DNA from: Clostridiales bacterium | Lineage (GTDB): Bacteria > Bacillota > Peptococcia > DRI-13 > UBA5745 | NCBI GenBank assembly: GCA_009777025.1 | Contig: WRMS01000003.1 | Coordinates: forward strand, 1 to 36,176 | Direction of reading: 5' to 3' | DNA length: 36,176 nucleotides | Part shown: positions 11,829-36,176 of the stretch, piece by piece | Position numbering within the stretch: the first letter of the stretch is position 1 | Layout of the letters: each line of letters starts with the position of its first letter | The notes under the pieces: generated by a model | Told to the model about the DNA's origin: nothing | Seen by the model: only the letters and a program-made list of their open reading frames with translations | The model's database searches: none | Program-made: the position numbers and the translations under genes

Positions 11829-13469
11829 TTAGTCAATATCCACTACTTTTCCCGGCCCTTCCATCATCAAAACGGCTTCCGTATCCATCTCGATTTCGGT
11901 TTTGTACTCTCTGTGCCTGGAGGTTATTTCCTCCAGGTATTCTTTCGCATCCTTAAAGAAACTCGCAATGATCAGACAAAACACGATGCCGATGGGAAAG
12001 GCGGCGATGATGGACACCGATTGAAGGCTGTTGATGGAGTTCTCCGCGAAAATCAAGCCGATGGGAAAGATGATGAAAACACAGGCCCAGAACGCCCTGA
12101 CCGGTTTCGCAGATTCTTCGTCCGGGGGAAGGTGGATATAGGAATACGCCGAAATGACCAGGGTCAGGGAATCAAATGTGGTCGAGTAGAACGTCACCAT
12201 CATGACAAAGAGCGCGATCAGCAGGACCTCTGTCAGCGGTAACGTCTCAAAGATTTGGATGATACCCAGATTGACGTCGGTTCCGTCAGCCACCATGCTG
12301 ATGACGTCAATCTTTCCCGCGAGCTGCTGCGAAAGACCATAATTCCCGAATATGATAAAGCTGAGAAAGGTACCGGCAATCCCGTAACCATAGGTGCCGA
12401 GGATCACATTCTTGATCGTCCTTCCGCCGCTGATCATCCCGATAAAGAATGGCGTCGCCACACACCAGGCCATCCAGTATGCCCAGTAGAATATGGTCCA
12501 GTTCTGGGCGAAGCCGTTAATGCCGTCGCCGGAGGCGCGAAGGGGATCCATCCAGGTGGACAGCCCGATGAAGTTTTGAAACAGATTGCCGATCGAGGTT
12601 ATACCGGTCTCGATGATATATCTTGTCTCGCCGCCGACAAATAGGAAGTAGAGCAGCATGGCAAAAAAGATCGTCGTGCATATCGCCGCGGACTTAATGA
12701 TCCCCTGTATCCCGCTGAGGACAGAAATCGTATAGACGGCCGCGATGCAGACGAGGACGCCGATGGTCAGCCCCGCGCTCATAGGAATCGCGAAAACCCG
12801 GCTGAGAGAGGCCGCCAGGAGGGGCGTCGCCAGGGAGAAAGTAGTCGCCGTTCCCGCGAGAAGGGCTAATATAGCGATAAAATCAATGAGTTTACCCACT
12901 GCACCGTCCACTTGATCGCCAAAGAGCGGGCGGCAGGATTCGGAAAACTTTTGCTTGGTCCGTCCTCTGACATGGAGCATAAACGCGAAAGCGACAGCCA
13001 GCATAACGTAGAAACCCCAGGGAATCGGTCCCCAGTGAAACAAAGGGTAGGTGGAAGCCCAGTCCTGGATCCCGCCAAGTTGTTCGACGCGGGGTTCTGC
13101 GGCGTAGAGCGCCCATTCGATAAACGAATAGAAGATAATGTCGGCTGCAAAGACGCCGGTGAAGATCATCGTCGCCCACTGGAAATCGTTATAATGCGGT
13201 TTATCCATACTGCCCAAGCGGATGTGCCCGTATTTGGAAAACGCGATATAAAGGGTGATAAACAAGATTCCCAGCCCGATGAGTATATAGAAAAAACCGA
13301 GCTCATTGCCCAGGAATCCGCGTATCACGTCAGTGATTGCAGTGGATTGCTCCGGCGCGAAAATAAAAATGGCGCAGAGCGCCGCAACGCAAATAAGCGG
13401 TAAAATGATCAGCGGCCAATCCAGCGCTTTCAGCAAGTTGCTCAGCCTATCCTTTGTCATTTGATTCAT
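11829..13469 (-). CDS. BCCT family transporter (choline/betaine/carnitine type)
   Basis: A 546-residue membrane protein with about 12 hydrophobic segments. The BCCT signature region is WTIFYWAYWMAWCVATPFFIGMISGGRT (aromatic substrate box in the eighth helix), and other family marks are FHWGPIPWGFY and TTFDSLTLVIS. BCCT carriers take up quaternary ammonium compounds with Na+ or H+, or exchange them. The gene starts 57 bases after the LicC/LicA fusion gene on the same strand and shares its promoter, which points to choline as substrate. This carrier would replace the LicB permease of classical lic loci. The C-terminal tail is acidic. Glycine betaine or carnitine remain possible substrates. Confidence 0.93.
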   Translation of the reverse strand: MNQMTKDRLSNLLKALDWPLIILPLICVAALCAIFIFAPEQSTAITDVIRGFLGNELGFFYILIGLGILFITLYIAFSKYGHIRLGSMDKPHYNDFQWATMIFTGVFAADIIFYSFIEWALYAAEPRVEQLGGIQDWASTYPLFHWGPIPWGFYVMLAVAFAFMLHVRGRTKQKFSESCRPLFGDQVDGAVGKLIDFIAILALLAGTATTFSLATPLLAASLSRVFAIPMSAGLTIGVLVCIAAVYTISVLSGIQGIIKSAAICTTIFFAMLLYFLFVGGETRYIIETGITSIGNLFQNFIGLSTWMDPLRASGDGINGFAQNWTIFYWAYWMAWCVATPFFIGMISGGRTIKNVILGTYGYGIAGTFLSFIIFGNYGLSQQLAGKIDVISMVADGTDVNLGIIQIFETLPLTEVLLIALFVMMVTFYSTTFDSLTLVISAYSYIHLPPDEESAKPVRAFWACVFIIFPIGLIFAENSINSLQSVSIIAAFPIGIVFCLIIASFFKDAKEYLEEITSRHREYKTEIEMDTEAVLMMEGPGKVVDID

Positions 13470-13526
13470 ACGTTTTTTTTAACCTTTCTACATCTGATCG
13501 GATGGATGATCACAGACCAAACTCGT

Positions 13527-15284
13527 TTAAACCTCAAGCTGGTTCAGCGCCTTTTCGATGAGCTTTTTCGCATACTGATGGAAGCGTTTGGAGTATCGGT
13601 ACTGCCGCAGGGAATAATCCCCGTAGTTTACGCCCATTCTGTTTTTGTATTCACACCACACGGACCAGAGGAGGCCTCCGGCTGCGGCGTAGGCATAGAC
13701 TTTAAACCGGTTCAGATCACTGGCTTCCCCATCGAAATATTGATCGATGACGCGATCGGCGCAGCTTTTATCATAGTTGGCATAAAGGCAAAACATGGCA
13801 ATGTCGATGTGGGGATCGCACATGCCGGCGTACTCCCAATCGATCAGATATACCTGGTCGCCGATAAATACAAAATTGTCCGACACCGCGTCGATATGGC
13901 AAAGGCATTTTTCTTTCGGCATGACGCTGAGCAGAGCGGTCAGTTCGAGGATTTTCTCTTTGGTTTCTTCATAATCCGAAAACTGTGGCTCTCCGTCACG
14001 CAGACTCTCATAATGATCAAGTCTCTCCAACAGGTCAAAGGAATGGGAGACTTGCAATTTCATTTCATGGAGCTTCCGAAGATGCCGCATACAGACGCCC
14101 ACATCCTCGTCGTTCTGGATATCGCATACCCTGGCATCGGTCCAATACTCCGCAACTTTGTAACCGTCGTCCGGCGAGATATAGACGATCTTGTCGGAAA
14201 GGTTTTTGTCAGCAAGGAGTTTGTAGACTTCGGCTTCCTGCCGGCGGTTGATGAGTTCATTGCTGCCTTCACCCGGTACACGCAGGATGTAAGGGGAATC
14301 TGCAACAGAAAAGCGCATAAGGCGGTTGGTCATTCCTTTAAATAAACCGGATATATCGGTGATGTCTTCCGGTGTGACGCCGAATATTTCGCCGATCAGG
14401 TTGATTCGCCTTGAGCGCAGATCCTTCGATTCGCTGTCCAGTTCACGCAATTCTTCATACGTGTTGATCACGTAAGCGGTCTGACCGAGCATAACCCGGG
14501 CATAAGGGAGCATCTTGTTGCCGAAGAACAAGGCCCTTTCCCAAGTTTCTCTATAGAATCTGCGCTGCCTGTCCAACCGGATGACCTGCTCCCTGACTTT
14601 CGCCGCTTCGTCTTCCATGAGATAACACAGGCCCGTCATCGAGTTGCCGGCGCTTTCATCCTCTGTATAGACCAGTTCCATCTTGCGGTTCAAGCGTACA
14701 AAGCTATCGTCGTCCACATATTCAGAAATCGCGTACCAGGAAAAGAATTCATTGCTGTTAAATGGATTGCGGGAGACCCATATATTGCTCGGCACGATGT
14801 AGCAATTGGACAAATGACCGGATGCCAGCCTGAGGGTGTGTAGACTGTCCCGGTTGGCAAACTCGTGATCGTAGATTAATTCTACATCAAAGGCGTCCAT
14901 GAGATACTCCAGCTTCTCCATCATGTAGCCGACGACCACATGGATTTCCGTTACGTTCACGTCGTGAAGCTGCCGTATAATCCGTTCGATAAGGGGCTCG
15001 TTGTTTATCTTCAGGAGGCCTTTCGGAACCCGATTGATCGGTACCATCCGGTGTCCCATTCCTGCCGCGAGGATGACGGCTCGCTGCGGCCTGGCGCCCT
15101 CCATATACTTTGCTGTTTTTTCAGTGATGCAGAAACTGTCGTCAATGTAGCCTTCATCGATCAGTTTCTTTAGCGAAGAATTCACAAGCCCGATGGAAAA
15201 ACCGGTTCGCCTTACGATTTCTCTATGGTTAAGATAGCTATAGTTGGCTAGGACCGCCAATACGATCCAATCCCTCTTGTTCAT
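13527..15284 (-). CDS. Winged-helix / CTP:phosphocholine cytidylyltransferase (LicC) / choline kinase (LicA) fusion
   Basis: About 585 residues in three parts. Residues 1-60 look like a winged helix-turn-helix (LNHREIVRRTGFSIGLVNSSLKKLIDEGYI). Residues 65-290 carry the nucleotidyltransferase motif RAVILAAGMGHRMVPINRVPKGLLKINN. Residues 290-585 are a choline/ethanolamine kinase-like phosphotransferase with CHIDAVSDNFVF (catalytic HxD...N) and YLIDWEYAGMCDPHIDIAMF. Together they would phosphorylate choline and activate it as CDP-choline for decorating surface glycans or making lipids. The ORF track begins at TTG 15335, but the sigma-A promoter's -10 ends at 15336, so transcription starts inside that frame; ATG 15284, with AGGAG upstream, is the real start. 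The gene is first in an operon with the BCCT carrier. Confidence 0.9.
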   Translation of the reverse strand: MNKRDWIVLAVLANYSYLNHREIVRRTGFSIGLVNSSLKKLIDEGYIDDSFCITEKTAKYMEGARPQRAVILAAGMGHRMVPINRVPKGLLKINNEPLIERIIRQLHDVNVTEIHVVVGYMMEKLEYLMDAFDVELIYDHEFANRDSLHTLRLASGHLSNCYIVPSNIWVSRNPFNSNEFFSWYAISEYVDDDSFVRLNRKMELVYTEDESAGNSMTGLCYLMEDEAAKVREQVIRLDRQRRFYRETWERALFFGNKMLPYARVMLGQTAYVINTYEELRELDSESKDLRSRRINLIGEIFGVTPEDITDISGLFKGMTNRLMRFSVADSPYILRVPGEGSNELINRRQEAEVYKLLADKNLSDKIVYISPDDGYKVAEYWTDARVCDIQNDEDVGVCMRHLRKLHEMKLQVSHSFDLLERLDHYESLRDGEPQFSDYEETKEKILELTALLSVMPKEKCLCHIDAVSDNFVFIGDQVYLIDWEYAGMCDPHIDIAMFCLYANYDKSCADRVIDQYFDGEASDLNRFKVYAYAAAGGLLWSVWCEYKNRMGVNYGDYSLRQYRYSKRFHQYAKKLIEKALNQLEV

Positions 15285-15335
15285 CGTATCATATTCACTC
15301 CTGTTCATGAAAAGACGATAATTGCATTTGACCAA

Positions 15336-32122: not shown

Positions 32123-32196
32123 GGCGCACAAGATTGTGAATCCCGATCCTGTGGAAGCAAAGAACAGTCGGACGCTTTGGGGAAAGGATGATGACG

Positions 32197-33483
32197 ATGC
32201 GGTTGCAAATCAGAGAATATCCGGTCACTTCTTTGGAATGGGCGGATATGAACGGATATGCGGAGGGCAGCCTGACGCTGCATAAGGAGGCGCTCATTCG
32301 CTTTCTGGAGGAAGACGGCGGATTAGCGGAGCTGATGCTTACCGATCTGGAACTGATCTGCCCGCAGACGTCTGCCAGGGTGATCAATATTGCGGAAGTA
32401 CTGCCTGCCCATGCTCGCCTGGGGGAGGGCGCTTCCGACTATCCCGGCTTGGCGGGGCCCTTGCAAACTGCGGGAGAGGGTATATCCGTGCAGCTAAGCG
32501 ACTTTTCTGTGCTGGCTATCGCGAGTCTCCCCAGCCGCTATGTCAAAGTGCTGGATAAAGAAGGGCCGGGAAATGCGCTTTCCCCTTATAGCGGACACTT
32601 TCATCTGGCTTTCCGGGCTGTGCCGCGTAAGCAAGATATGAGGCGAAGCGACTACTTTGCACAATTGAAGAAAATGGGACTTATCCTTGGCGCCTATGTC
32701 GCCAGGGTCGCAGCCGGATCCGGCGCTGCGCCGCATCGGGCGGCTGACTATGACTTGACCCCTTGTGCGGATAAACTGCCGAGGGCGGTCTATGTTTGCA
32801 TGCTCGCTTCCCTCCAGAACTGGGATAAGGGCGAGCCCATACTCTACGGCAACGATCTGGCCAACATGCTCCCCTGCGTCCTGCATCCGAACGAGATGCT
32901 CGACGGCGCCATAACGGCCCAGAACTTCAATCTGGGTATCGATACCTACTCCTTTGTCAACAATCCGGTCGTCAAGGAGTTGTACGCCAGACACGGTAAG
33001 GATCTGGATTTCGCCGGCGTCGTCGTGTACGCATCTCACGCAACCCGTGAGCAGAGAGAACGTTCGGTGCAGATGACCTGCACGCTCGTTAAGCACGTTT
33101 TGCACGCGGATATGGCGATATTGACGAAAGTGGGCGGCGGTATTCCCGAATCTGACGTAATGATGGCGGTGGAGAACCTGGAGAAACAAGGCGTGACGAC
33201 TACGGCTATCCTGTGGTCGCAATGGGGCGACGGCACAATCAAGGATATCCTTTCGGCCTTTTCTCCGGCAGCCGACGCTATGGTTTCGGTGGGCATCAAC
33301 GACACAGCGATCTGCCTGCCGCCGCAGAAGCGCGTGGTGGGCGGACTGACTCTGGATCCGCTGTCAGACGACCCGGAAGCATTACCCCAGCCTGCGGATC
33401 AGGAGATCGTACTGCGTACAAGGGAGTACTGTGGGGCGATCAACCAGCTTGGGGCCTCAAAAGTAGCAATGATCGAGCGATGA
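32197..33483 (+). CDS. Glycine/sarcosine/betaine reductase component B alpha/beta-like protein, pyruvoyl Cys position replaced
   Basis: A 428-residue protein related to GrdE/GrdG, the proprotein that normally cleaves itself at an Asn-Cys bond to give alpha and pyruvoyl-bearing beta subunits. Shared features: the MRLQIREYPV start, LHKEALI, MLDGAIT, then NNPVVKELYARHGKDLDFAGVVV and KVGGGIPESDVMMAVENLE. Where family members, as I recall them, read GNCVSACDKN, this protein reads QNFNLGIDTYS, so Asn243 is followed by Phe244 instead of Cys. Unless another residue serves, no pyruvoyl group can form. ATG 32197 has AAAGG 9 bases upstream and fits family N-termini better than 32188. The Sec-containing partner begins 19 bases downstream. 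Its substrate is unknown. Confidence 0.82.
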   Translation: MRLQIREYPVTSLEWADMNGYAEGSLTLHKEALIRFLEEDGGLAELMLTDLELICPQTSARVINIAEVLPAHARLGEGASDYPGLAGPLQTAGEGISVQLSDFSVLAIASLPSRYVKVLDKEGPGNALSPYSGHFHLAFRAVPRKQDMRRSDYFAQLKKMGLILGAYVARVAAGSGAAPHRAADYDLTPCADKLPRAVYVCMLASLQNWDKGEPILYGNDLANMLPCVLHPNEMLDGAITAQNFNLGIDTYSFVNNPVVKELYARHGKDLDFAGVVVYASHATREQRERSVQMTCTLVKHVLHADMAILTKVGGGIPESDVMMAVENLEKQGVTTTAILWSQWGDGTIKDILSAFSPAADAMVSVGINDTAICLPPQKRVVGGLTLDPLSDDPEALPQPADQEIVLRTREYCGAINQLGASKVAMIER

Positions 33484-33502
33484 CGCCAAAGGAGGAAGCG
33501 GC

Positions 33503-34807
33503 ATGAGCGGGAAAACCTATCGCGTTGTGCAGTATTTGAATCAGTTCTTTGCCGGCGAAGGCGGAGAAGAACAAGCGGGCGCGCGCCCCCATTCCATCGA
33601 TGGACCCGTCGGTCCGGGCCGCCTGCTCGAAGAATCCTCAGGCGGCGCTCTTCGCGTAGCCGCTACGGTCATATGCGGCGATAACCGCTTTGTGGAAGAT
33701 CCCCAGGCGGAGGAGGAGCTCCTTTCCATGATAGCCGGCTTTCGTCCGGAAGCCTTTGTCGCGGGGCCTGCTTTTCTGGCGGGGCGTTACGGAGAGGCCT
33801 GTGCGGAGCTATGCAAAGCAGTGCGGGAAAAGCTCGCCATACCCGTGATCACCGGGCTTGCGCCCGCGCATCCTGCCGTAGACAGATACCGGAGCGCCCT
33901 CCGTATCGTGCGGACGGGGGCGAACGCCGCCGATATGCGAAAAAGCATGCCGCTGATGACAGCCGTTCTGCTGAAGGATCTGTGGGAAGAGGAGCTTTCT
34001 CAGGATGAACAGGACGCGCTATTCAAACGCGGCCTGATTGAAAACGCGGTTTTGTCAGAAAACGCGGCCCGGCGTGGAGTGGCTATGCTGCTGGCAAAGC
34101 AGCGGGGAGAAACGTGGCAAAGCGAGATACCCATTCCCGTATTCGATTATTCGCCGCCTGCGCCACCGGTAACTGGACAGCCGCTCAAGGTCGCCCTTGT
34201 GACCGACGGCGGGCTGATGCTGAGAGGCAATCCGGAGAAAATGCCCTCCGGCCGCTGTGTCCGCTACTATACCATCGATCTGCATGACAGAGCGAGTCTC
34301 GATCCTTCCTGGCTGGAAGTGAATCATTTCGGATACGATACCCGCTATGTAGCCGCCGATCCCCATAGGCTGACGCCCTATGATGTGGTCAGAGATTTAG
34401 AAAAGGCAGGGGAGCTTACCCTTCATCCCAGGCTCTTCACGCTGGCAGGCGTAGCCACCGCAGTGGAAAGCGCAGCCGCTATCGGCAGAGGGATAGCCGG
34501 GGAACTCAAGGAAGCGGGAATTCAGGCGGTCATCCTGACCTCCACCTGAGGCACCAGCACGCGCTGCGGTGCAGTGATCGCCAAAGAACTGGACAGAGCC
34601 GGCATTCCGACCGCGCACATCTGTACGATGCTCAATGTATCCAAAGGCATGGGCGGGAATCGCCTGATCCCTTCGCGAAGCGTACTCCACCCCACAGGGG
34701 ACCCTGAACTCTCCCCCGATGAGGAGTACAGCCTGCGTCTGGAGATCGTCAGAAACGCAATCCGCGCCCTGGGGGCGGACATTCAGGCGCCGCAAGTATT
34801 TGAGTGA
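33503..34807 (+). CDS. Selenoprotein: glycine/sarcosine/betaine reductase component B gamma-like subunit (in-frame UGA = Sec)
   Basis: The ORF track splits this gene into 33503-34549 and 34574-34807, but both are in the same frame, joined across TGA at 34547-34549. The junction reads VILTST-U-GTSTRCGAVIAKELDRAGIP, the active site of GrdB/GrdF/GrdH selenoproteins, so the UGA is selenocysteine 349 of a 434-residue protein. Canonical members read U-G-T-C-T-R-C; here the first Cys is Ser and the second is kept. The tail has HICTMLNVSKGMGGNRLIPS, as in the family. A hairpin directly after the UGA can act as SECIS. The RBS is AAAGGAGG. It pairs with the upstream alpha/beta-like gene; grdA, grdC and grdD are not in this window. 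Confidence 0.92.
34551..34572 (+). promoter_or_regulatory. bSECIS-like hairpin after the Sec codon
   Basis: GCACC and GGTGC form the lower stem and AGC/GCT an upper stem around a short ACGC loop, starting two bases after the UGA. Position fits bacterial SECIS elements bound by SelB, though the stem also overlaps codons for conserved residues. Confidence 0.65.
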
Positions 34808-34922: not shown

Positions 34923-35002
34923 ACTGTATTTTTCCACAAACGGATGGAGAACATCATCTTCAACCCGCATTGACAGGAACCATGGAGGAGGGAGAATTCT
35001 TG

Positions 35003-36176
35003 ATGACAAGAAAAATCTTAGCCGTATTTGTTTTAGCAGCCATGATACTCACCGGTATGCCCATGACGGCATGGGCGGGCGGTGTGCAGACAGGGACGAA
35101 TACCGAAATCAATGTCTACGGTTCTGTTATAGAGGGACCCGACAGGCCTGTGCTTGTGCAGCCGATCGGTAACCTGGACGGAAATGGCGATGGCGCGGAA
35201 TTTAACCTGACGATTATCTCACAGAGTGGCTTTGCCGCAGGGGATGAGATATACGTCGCCTCCAGACGGTGTCTTGTGGATTATTTCTATTATTGGGATG
35301 GGCAGGGGAACTGGATTCCTTTTGGCAACGCGCCTGGCGACACGATCGGCAATCCCGGGGAGATGCAGCAAACGGACAGTACGTATGCCCTGCAGATCAC
35401 CTATGGCGATATGCTTCGTCCGGTTGGCAGCAGCGAAACGGTAGCGACAGCGAGAATTAAAGTGGTTTCCGTCGCTGCCGGAGTTTCGCAGATCGTCTTT
35501 GGCAGGGACGCGGCGGATACAGCCACCTATGCCGGGGGTGTGATACCGTTTGACGGGCTTAGCCAAATCATTGGACAAAGAAGTTACCCGGCGGAATATG
35601 CCGCTTCCTTAGGCGGCGGCGTACAGACGGGGACGAATCCCAAAGTCAATGTCTATGGCTCCGTTGTTGAGGGACCCGATAGCGCTGCACCCGTGCAATT
35701 TATTTACAGCTTAGACGGAAATGGCGACGGCGAGGAATTTGATCTGGCAATCCTCTCCGAGAGTGGTTTTGCCGCGGGGGATGAGATATACGTCGCCTCC
35801 AGCCGATATGCAGTCGATTATTTTTTTTATCAGGACGCGCAGGGACGCTGGATCCCTTTTGGTAACGCGCCCGGCGACGAGATTCTCCATCTTAGCAAAA
35901 TGCAGCAAGCAAACAATTCTCATGCTTTGCAGATCACCTATGGCGACATGCTCCGTCCGGTTGATGGCAGCGATACGGTAGCGACAGCGAGAATTAAAGT
36001 GGTTTCCGTCGCAGCCGGGACTTCCCAGATCGTCTTTGGCGCGGACGCGGCGGATACCGCCTCCTATGCCATGGGTGTGACGCCGATTGACGGATTAATC
36101 AGAATTATTGGAGTCAGAAGATATCCGGCCGAATATACTTTTTCATTGGGCGGCGTGCAGACGGGGACGAATACCA
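35003..36176 (+). CDS. Secreted protein with about 179-residue tandem repeats (3' end outside window)
   Basis: This frame is open from ATG 35003 to the end of the window (391 codons) and is missing from the ORF track because it has no stop here. GGAGGAGGGAG lies 8 bases upstream. The N-terminus MTRKILAVFVLAAMILTGMPMTAWA is a signal peptide with an Ala-x-Ala-like cleavage site. The mature part repeats a unit that starts GGVQTGTN, continues NVYGSV-EGPD, then LDGNGDG-EF (a possible Ca-binding loop), SGFAAGDEIYVAS, WIPFGNAPGD, ALQITYGDMLRPV, VATARIKVVSVAAG and QIVFG, and ends YPAEY. Two complete units and the start of a third are visible. I do not recognise the family; surface or extracellular structural use is likely. 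The whole length and any anchor domain lie outside. Confidence 0.85.
   Translation, partial: MTRKILAVFVLAAMILTGMPMTAWAGGVQTGTNTEINVYGSVIEGPDRPVLVQPIGNLDGNGDGAEFNLTIISQSGFAAGDEIYVASRRCLVDYFYYWDGQGNWIPFGNAPGDTIGNPGEMQQTDSTYALQITYGDMLRPVGSSETVATARIKVVSVAAGVSQIVFGRDAADTATYAGGVIPFDGLSQIIGQRSYPAEYAASLGGGVQTGTNPKVNVYGSVVEGPDSAAPVQFIYSLDGNGDGEEFDLAILSESGFAAGDEIYVASSRYAVDYFFYQDAQGRWIPFGNAPGDEILHLSKMQQANNSHALQITYGDMLRPVDGSDTVATARIKVVSVAAGTSQIVFGADAADTASYAMGVTPIDGLIRIIGVRRYPAEYTFSLGGVQTGTNT
35081..36151 (+). repeat. Two full tandem repeats encoding the secreted protein (about 535 bp each)
   Basis: Unit 1 is 35081-35617 (179 codons), unit 2 is 35618-36151 (178 codons), and unit 3 starts at 36152. DNA identity is high in patches, for example the stretch encoding ITYGDMLRPV...VATARIKVVSVAAG, which suggests recent duplication or gene conversion. 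Confidence 0.85.

Follow-up and report, generated by a model that had tools for sequence, protein, structure and literature searches.

A selenocysteine-containing protein B pair without the pyruvoyl-forming cysteine in a Clostridiales genome

In a window of 36,176 nucleotides (the whole stretch of contig WRMS01000003.1 analysed here), ORF reading and profile matches revealed an intact protein B-type gene pair on the + strand (32188/32197–34807, Table 1) that retains selenocysteine (Sec) and lacks the cysteine at which GrdE and GrdG are cleaved. Among selenoenzymes, glycine reductase is the standard example of amine activation through a pyruvoyl group. The pair described here is probably a protein B of a non-pyruvoyl kind, in which the selenolate would displace a non-amine substituent and the resulting carboxymethyl-selenium group would be passed to GrdA. 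Judged from its sequence, it appears to combine an ordinary fold and family with unusual chemistry, and to belong to a deep, little-described branch.

Table 1. Coordinates of the gene pair and of its diagnostic features in the window
Feature	Position	Strand	Basis
Alpha/beta-like subunit (GrdE/GrdG/GrdI/FarE homologue), putatively of unprocessed type	32197..33483	+	PF09338
Asn-Phe codons AAC TTC at the GrdE/GrdG Asn-Cys cleavage position	32923..32928	+	alignments
Gamma-like selenoprotein subunit (GrdB/GrdF/GrdH/FarB homologue)	33503..34807	+	PF07355, TIGR01918
In-frame TGA read as selenocysteine U349 (codon 349)	34547..34549	+	read-through homology, SECIS, selB + tRNA-Sec
AGC, Ser at U+3, replacing the first Cys of UxxCxxC	34556..34558	+	alignments
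SECIS-like hairpin CGCUGC-GGU-GCAGUG within the coding sequence, beginning 12 bases past the UGA	34562..34576	+	alignment-based pairing
Second Cys of UxxCxxC, kept	34565-34567	+	

The alpha/beta ORF extends from 32188 to 33483 (431 aa) with candidate ATG codons at 32188, 32191 and 32197, the last being favoured by a GGAAAGG seen by eye 9 bases 5' of it. Its product matched PF09338 (Gly_reductase) with 239.9 bits over positions 1–424 of 426, and the gamma product matched PF07355 (GRDB) with 336 bits and TIGR01918 with 374.9 bits (cut-off 65.45) over positions 1–431 of 431. Adjacent PF09338 and PF07355 genes with Sec place the pair in the broad protein B superfamily. However, the cut-offs of all named NCBIfam equivalogs were missed by far: the alpha/beta subunit scored 141.4 bits against 675 for FarE, its best model, and 133 against 780 for GrdG, and the gamma subunit scored 403 against 800 for GrdF, 349 against 602 for GrdB and 342.8 against 775 for betaine_GrdH. 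By these scores the pair is a protein B in the broad sense, and not of the glycine, sarcosine, betaine or fluoroacetate type. The AF2 model of the alpha/beta subunit had a pLDDT of 84.6 and a pTM of 0.87; a sequence search of solved structures gave no match, and Foldseek with the AF2 model returned nothing better than E 0.01. Upstream lie rnc-smc-ftsY, with ftsY immediately before the pair, and an unrelated secreted protein is encoded downstream; no catabolic or transporter gene adjoins the pair in the window. The secreted protein (34970–36176) carries internal repeats and has no Pfam match, and a homologue with 34% identity over 386 columns is encoded beside selB on another contig (L042, 2944–4107). 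Elsewhere in the window, on the − strand (11829–15335), a BCCT transporter gene (11829–13469) adjoins a winged helix/nucleotidyltransferase/choline kinase fusion, which recalls phosphocholine (lic) genes.

The original prediction had placed Asn-Phe at the position where GrdE and GrdG carry Asn-Cys, and alignment confirmed it. The site (N246-F247 counted from the ATG at 32188, N243-F244 from that at 32197) is anchored by a conserved HPNExLDGA just upstream; at the site itself canonical GrdE and GrdG read GN/C, with the slash at the cleavage point. A Phe at this site cannot yield a pyruvoyl group, as had been proposed. Formation of the pyruvoyl from a neighbouring Ser or Thr was considered and rejected, because the Thr-Tyr that follows the site occurs in processed relatives too. 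In addition, the second conserved cysteine region (CDKNT) is absent and the loop is three residues shorter than in GrdE/GrdG, and each of the 23 columns that are invariant in an alignment of 26 non-Cys sequences is kept. Two GrdE-like proteins at other loci (L099, 3004–4260; L118, 3019–4275), which fall within the Asn-Cys clade, have Asn-Ser at the cleavage site and may represent a serine-derived pyruvoyl or inactive copies.

The motif of the gamma subunit is STUGTSTRCG, that is, U-G-T-S-T-R-C against the canonical U-G-T-C-T-R-C, and translation through the UGA continues to the family C-terminus; the earlier reading that Sec and the last Cys are retained and the first Cys is replaced by Ser was thus borne out. 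A genuine stop at the UGA was rejected, because homology reads through it and a SECIS hairpin is present. Folding of the window hairpin alone gave no significant signal (z −0.4), and this uninformative single-sequence fold was replaced by a test resting on the alignment. The six pairs of the hairpin are formed in 93–100% of 104 distinct sequences, compared with 17–48% for slid partners, and one pair alternates between U-A (92 sequences) and C-G (12), the window having C-G. Folded as an alignment (alifold), the hairpin reached −4.9 kcal/mol, whereas 30 shuffles of synonymous codons gave −0.3 ± 0.7 kcal/mol. When the published GrdB and GrdF motifs (PMC9751293) were applied, none of the 24 gammas with Ser at U+3 (hereafter Ser-type), window included, matched, while 51 (GrdB) and 2 (GrdF) of 66 gammas from Asn-Cys loci did. 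The HGG of the glycine and sarcosine types and the HAG of GrdH become HxG in the Ser-type group, where x is S, R, A, T or N, and F in the window.

We compared more than 140 alpha/beta proteins, collected by a phylum-wide search, a GTDB genome profile scan, plasmid references and the Rokubacteria-type phylum, for the cleavage-site residue and the residue at U+3. Asn-Cys was found in 93 GrdE/GrdG-type loci, and the 67 with a readable partner had UGTCTRC (65) or UGTDTRC (2). Ser at U+3 was accompanied by absence of the cleavage Cys in 23 of 23 pairs, window included, from Bacillota, Chloroflexota, Rokubacteria and Thermodesulfobacteriota. Since the same pairing occurs at 22 other loci in at least four phyla, neither feature of the window is due to chance. 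Strict coupling of Cys loss to the change at U+3 was rejected, however, because GrdI-type loci without the cysteine keep UGTCTRC in the gamma (15/15). Their site is Ser-Phe in 13 of the 15 loci (14 if a Ser-Phe-like one is included) and Ser-Tyr in one; in the named reference, the GrdI-type operon of Enterococcus gilvus (L162), it is Ser-Phe and the partner scores above the betaine_GrdH cut-off. A gamma-first group likewise has no cysteine. It shows Asn-Tyr/Leu together with either UGTCTRC, kept in L035, L028, L082, L038, L090, L143 and L151, or UATGTRC; in L035 and L038 an aldehyde dehydrogenase gene adjoins the pair. The gammas of L131 and L133 have UATGTRC, with neither Cys nor Ser at U+3. 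Among the Rokubacteria-type loci L193–L200, several genomes carry at least two protein B types, one with UGTSTRC and one with UGTCNRC; in the UGTCNRC type the processing site reads Pro-Tyr-Arg.

Phylogenetic analysis set the pair apart, as the original prediction of a separate branch had suggested, and identified both residues named there as marks of that branch. In the alpha/beta tree the window joined the Ser-type pairs (100/98), and in the gamma tree the Cys-type groups were split from the others (100/93). A concatenated tree from which ten motif columns had been removed united the Ser-type pairs, 20 rows in all, in one clade (100/99); the window fell within an 18-row part of it (99/98), near Rokubacteria, Chloroflexota and Bacillota lineages. 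The window therefore belongs to the Ser-type non-pyruvoyl clade as defined here by absence of the cleavage Cys, Ser at U+3 and support without the motif columns. AU tests on the concatenated alignment rejected placing the window among Asn-Cys proteins of the glycine/sarcosine type (p 4e-5) or with betaine GrdI (p 1.6e-5), excluded a grouping with the gamma-first group only weakly (p 0.057), and gave p 0.13 for a position outside the other Ser-type pairs; on alpha/beta alone, other placements were still allowed (p 0.05–0.10). In the alpha/beta tree the branch of the window reaches a great length, 2.3 changes per column. With concatenated data, too, no end branch was longer than that of the window, which makes its detailed placement uncertain. 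The window is a deep, lone lineage within the Ser-type clade, with a loose place near the base.

The partner genes expected elsewhere in the genome were located in part. The host assembly comprises 170 contigs and is 85% complete; on contig C47 selB lies next to the tRNA-Sec gene, and contig C27 carries a canonical grdE-grdB pair, with Asn-Cys and UGTCTRC, followed by a Sec-containing GrdA. The GrdB of C27 scored 653 against the glycine reductase cut-off of 602. GrdC was not found in the 85%-complete assembly with either the PF19364 profile or the E. gilvus protein as query, PF19364 having matched in a genome of the host's family; neither was GrdD, for which PF02504 matched only plsX, inside the window. 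The acetyl-phosphate end may thus be missing or run differently. The C27 locus (L037, 5082–17999) also has a grdX-like ORF before grdE-grdB-grdA and adenine deaminase and aldehyde dehydrogenase genes after them; also after them, genes recognized by eye as MmgE/PrpD-like, argininosuccinate-lyase-like and of a dipeptide ABC transporter complete a catabolic island without grdC/grdD. Among nine genomes of the family, one other has a protein B pair, of a different type, and no close relative of the window pair was found in the genus or, in a contig scan with alpha/beta alone, in 84,980 species genomes. In the same family (G001), GrdC and GrdD are apparently fused in one protein of 908 aa (DUF5940 + FA_synthesis), encoded between grdA and hydantoinase-like genes (L159, 6347–9073).

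The operons of Ser-type relatives, in which neighbours without a Pfam result were named by eye, are more complete. L154 encodes TRAP DctM, a URO-D-like protein, alpha/beta, gamma, thioredoxin reductase with a thioredoxin domain, GrdC (DUF5940), GrdD and acetate kinase. L155 and L156 encode an IclR-like regulator, the pair, a C_GCAxxG_C_C protein, two CoA-transferase subunits, GrdA, GrdC and GrdD. In L052 the order is GrdA-like, the pair, thioredoxin-like, GrdC-like and TRAP transporter genes, and in L057 the pair is followed by GrdC-, GrdD- and thioredoxin-like genes. The Rokubacteria pair is preceded by a 2-hydroxyacid-dehydrogenase-like gene and followed by a DsbA-like gene, with a GrdC-like gene farther on. 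Each of the genomes that hold L049, L050 and L051 encodes a Sec GrdA. Such contexts indicate that the branch very likely supplies proteins A and C, and they speak for substrates that are organic acids or linked to CoA, not for a single amino acid. Next to the Ser-type pair of L153 (2858–10704) are genes for an amidohydrolase and a dihydroorotate-dehydrogenase-like protein, and further neighbours were recognized by eye as carbamate kinase and carbamoyltransferase, a setting that suggests purine or hydantoin breakdown.

A relaxation or change of function would be compatible with the very long alpha/beta branch as well. On that account the pair could be a decaying or repurposed copy, either on its way to becoming a pseudogene or a redox selenoprotein pair that has ceased to supply GrdA, as the lone occurrence in the genus and the failure to find grdC/grdD in the 85%-complete assembly would allow. 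We consider this unlikely, as both frames are intact, the invariant residues are kept, the SECIS has a compensated pair, the alpha/beta fold is predicted with good pLDDT, and the gamma is 46–47% identical to that of Rokubacteria L049. The Rokubacteria pairs (L049, L193–L200; gamma 42–46% identical) share UGTSTRC, the absence of the cysteine and the same shortened loop, but have Gly-Phe-Met at the site and a DsbA-like gene followed by grdC. The two-gene order, both Pfam domains, the UGA Sec codon, the SECIS and the HPNE region are shared with GrdE/GrdB and GrdG/GrdF as well (e.g. GrdG/GrdF of Peptoclostridium acidaminophilum), whereas the window lacks Asn-Cys, has U-G-T-S-T-R-C, and has HFG for HGG, with identities of about 30% (alpha/beta) and about 38–41% (gamma).

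The original prediction held that the complex does without the amine-binding carbonyl chemistry of glycine, sarcosine or betaine reductases, as a new branch or with another substrate. The missing pyruvoyl Cys, the retained Sec and the separate branch sustain that view, but the contrast with betaine reductase fails, because GrdI-type proteins also lack the cysteine; Phe at the cysteine position itself is therefore precedented. The Ser that precedes this Phe in GrdI is absent from the window. GrdI/GrdH of E. gilvus resembles the window further in its Sec gamma, and a divergent betaine-type (quaternary ammonium) component, acting on betaine or a similar onium acetate, would accord with these likenesses and with the BCCT transporter gene of the window. 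We find this improbable, since GrdI/GrdH fall in a different clade by the AU test, GrdH retains UxxCxxC and HAG, the window lacks the three residues and SSK stretch that GrdI retains in this region, its betaine_GrdH score is far too low, and the choline-kinase/nucleotidyltransferase neighbour of the BCCT gene suggests choline use. A fluoroacetate/haloacetate reductase component like FarEB of Cloacibacillus/Pyramidobacter, in which both processing cysteines and the CxxC after Sec are also absent (PMC10838667) and whose FarE is the best NCBIfam match, has only a slim chance, because the window falls far under the FarE cut-off and has no farA/farC, far transporter or radical SAM gene adjoining the pair, FarEB being compared here through model scores and its published description.

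The NCBIfam FarE minus GrdG score was +8.5 bits for the window, −4 to −88 for other Ser-type members and −79 to −437 outside the clade, and FarEB may thus belong to the Ser-type clade, an indication from model scores rather than a placement. GrdI and FarE are reported not to be pro-proteins, fluoroacetate has been argued to need no Schiff base, and the action of FarE on fluoroacetate was reported from operon induction and degradation assays (PMC10838667), so that Sec without pyruvoyl is already known for one operon type and for betaine reductase. With these precedents, the feature is not a unique oddity; it characterizes a branch, one relative of which has been studied in part. What seems distinctive is the combination of an absent cleavage Cys with Ser at U+3 in one clade; Cys loss itself is not new. 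Our literature search found no paper treating the Ser-type clade as such.

For the favoured non-pyruvoyl protein B, we propose that the alpha/beta subunit would remain a single uncleaved chain and bind X-CH2-COO-, from which X would depart without a prior Schiff base; neither primary nor secondary amines would then qualify as X. The reduced Sec of the gamma subunit would attack the alpha carbon and free X, forming a carboxymethyl selenoether. Its carboxymethyl group would pass to the Sec of GrdA, whose gene lies elsewhere in the genome, and would be converted to acetyl phosphate where protein C exists. With Ser at U+3 the selenium cannot make a selenenyl-sulfide with that neighbour, and the second Cys remains. 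More speculatively, and with less than even confidence, the clade may be a deep, phylum-spanning protein B class that was never pyruvoyl/Schiff-base dependent and strips non-amine substituents from carboxymethyl compounds via a selenoether, the window lineage having its own substrate and possibly no protein C.

The Grd phylogeny of PMC9751293 was filtered by sequence motifs, and since no member of the Ser-type branch matches them, the branch would be omitted from it. A widespread Sec branch without pyruvoyl implies that selenoether chemistry extends beyond the reduction of amino acids. Many genes annotated as glycine, sarcosine or betaine reductase would then have other substrates, and the cleavage-site residue and U+3 provide two marks that separate such cases by sequence.
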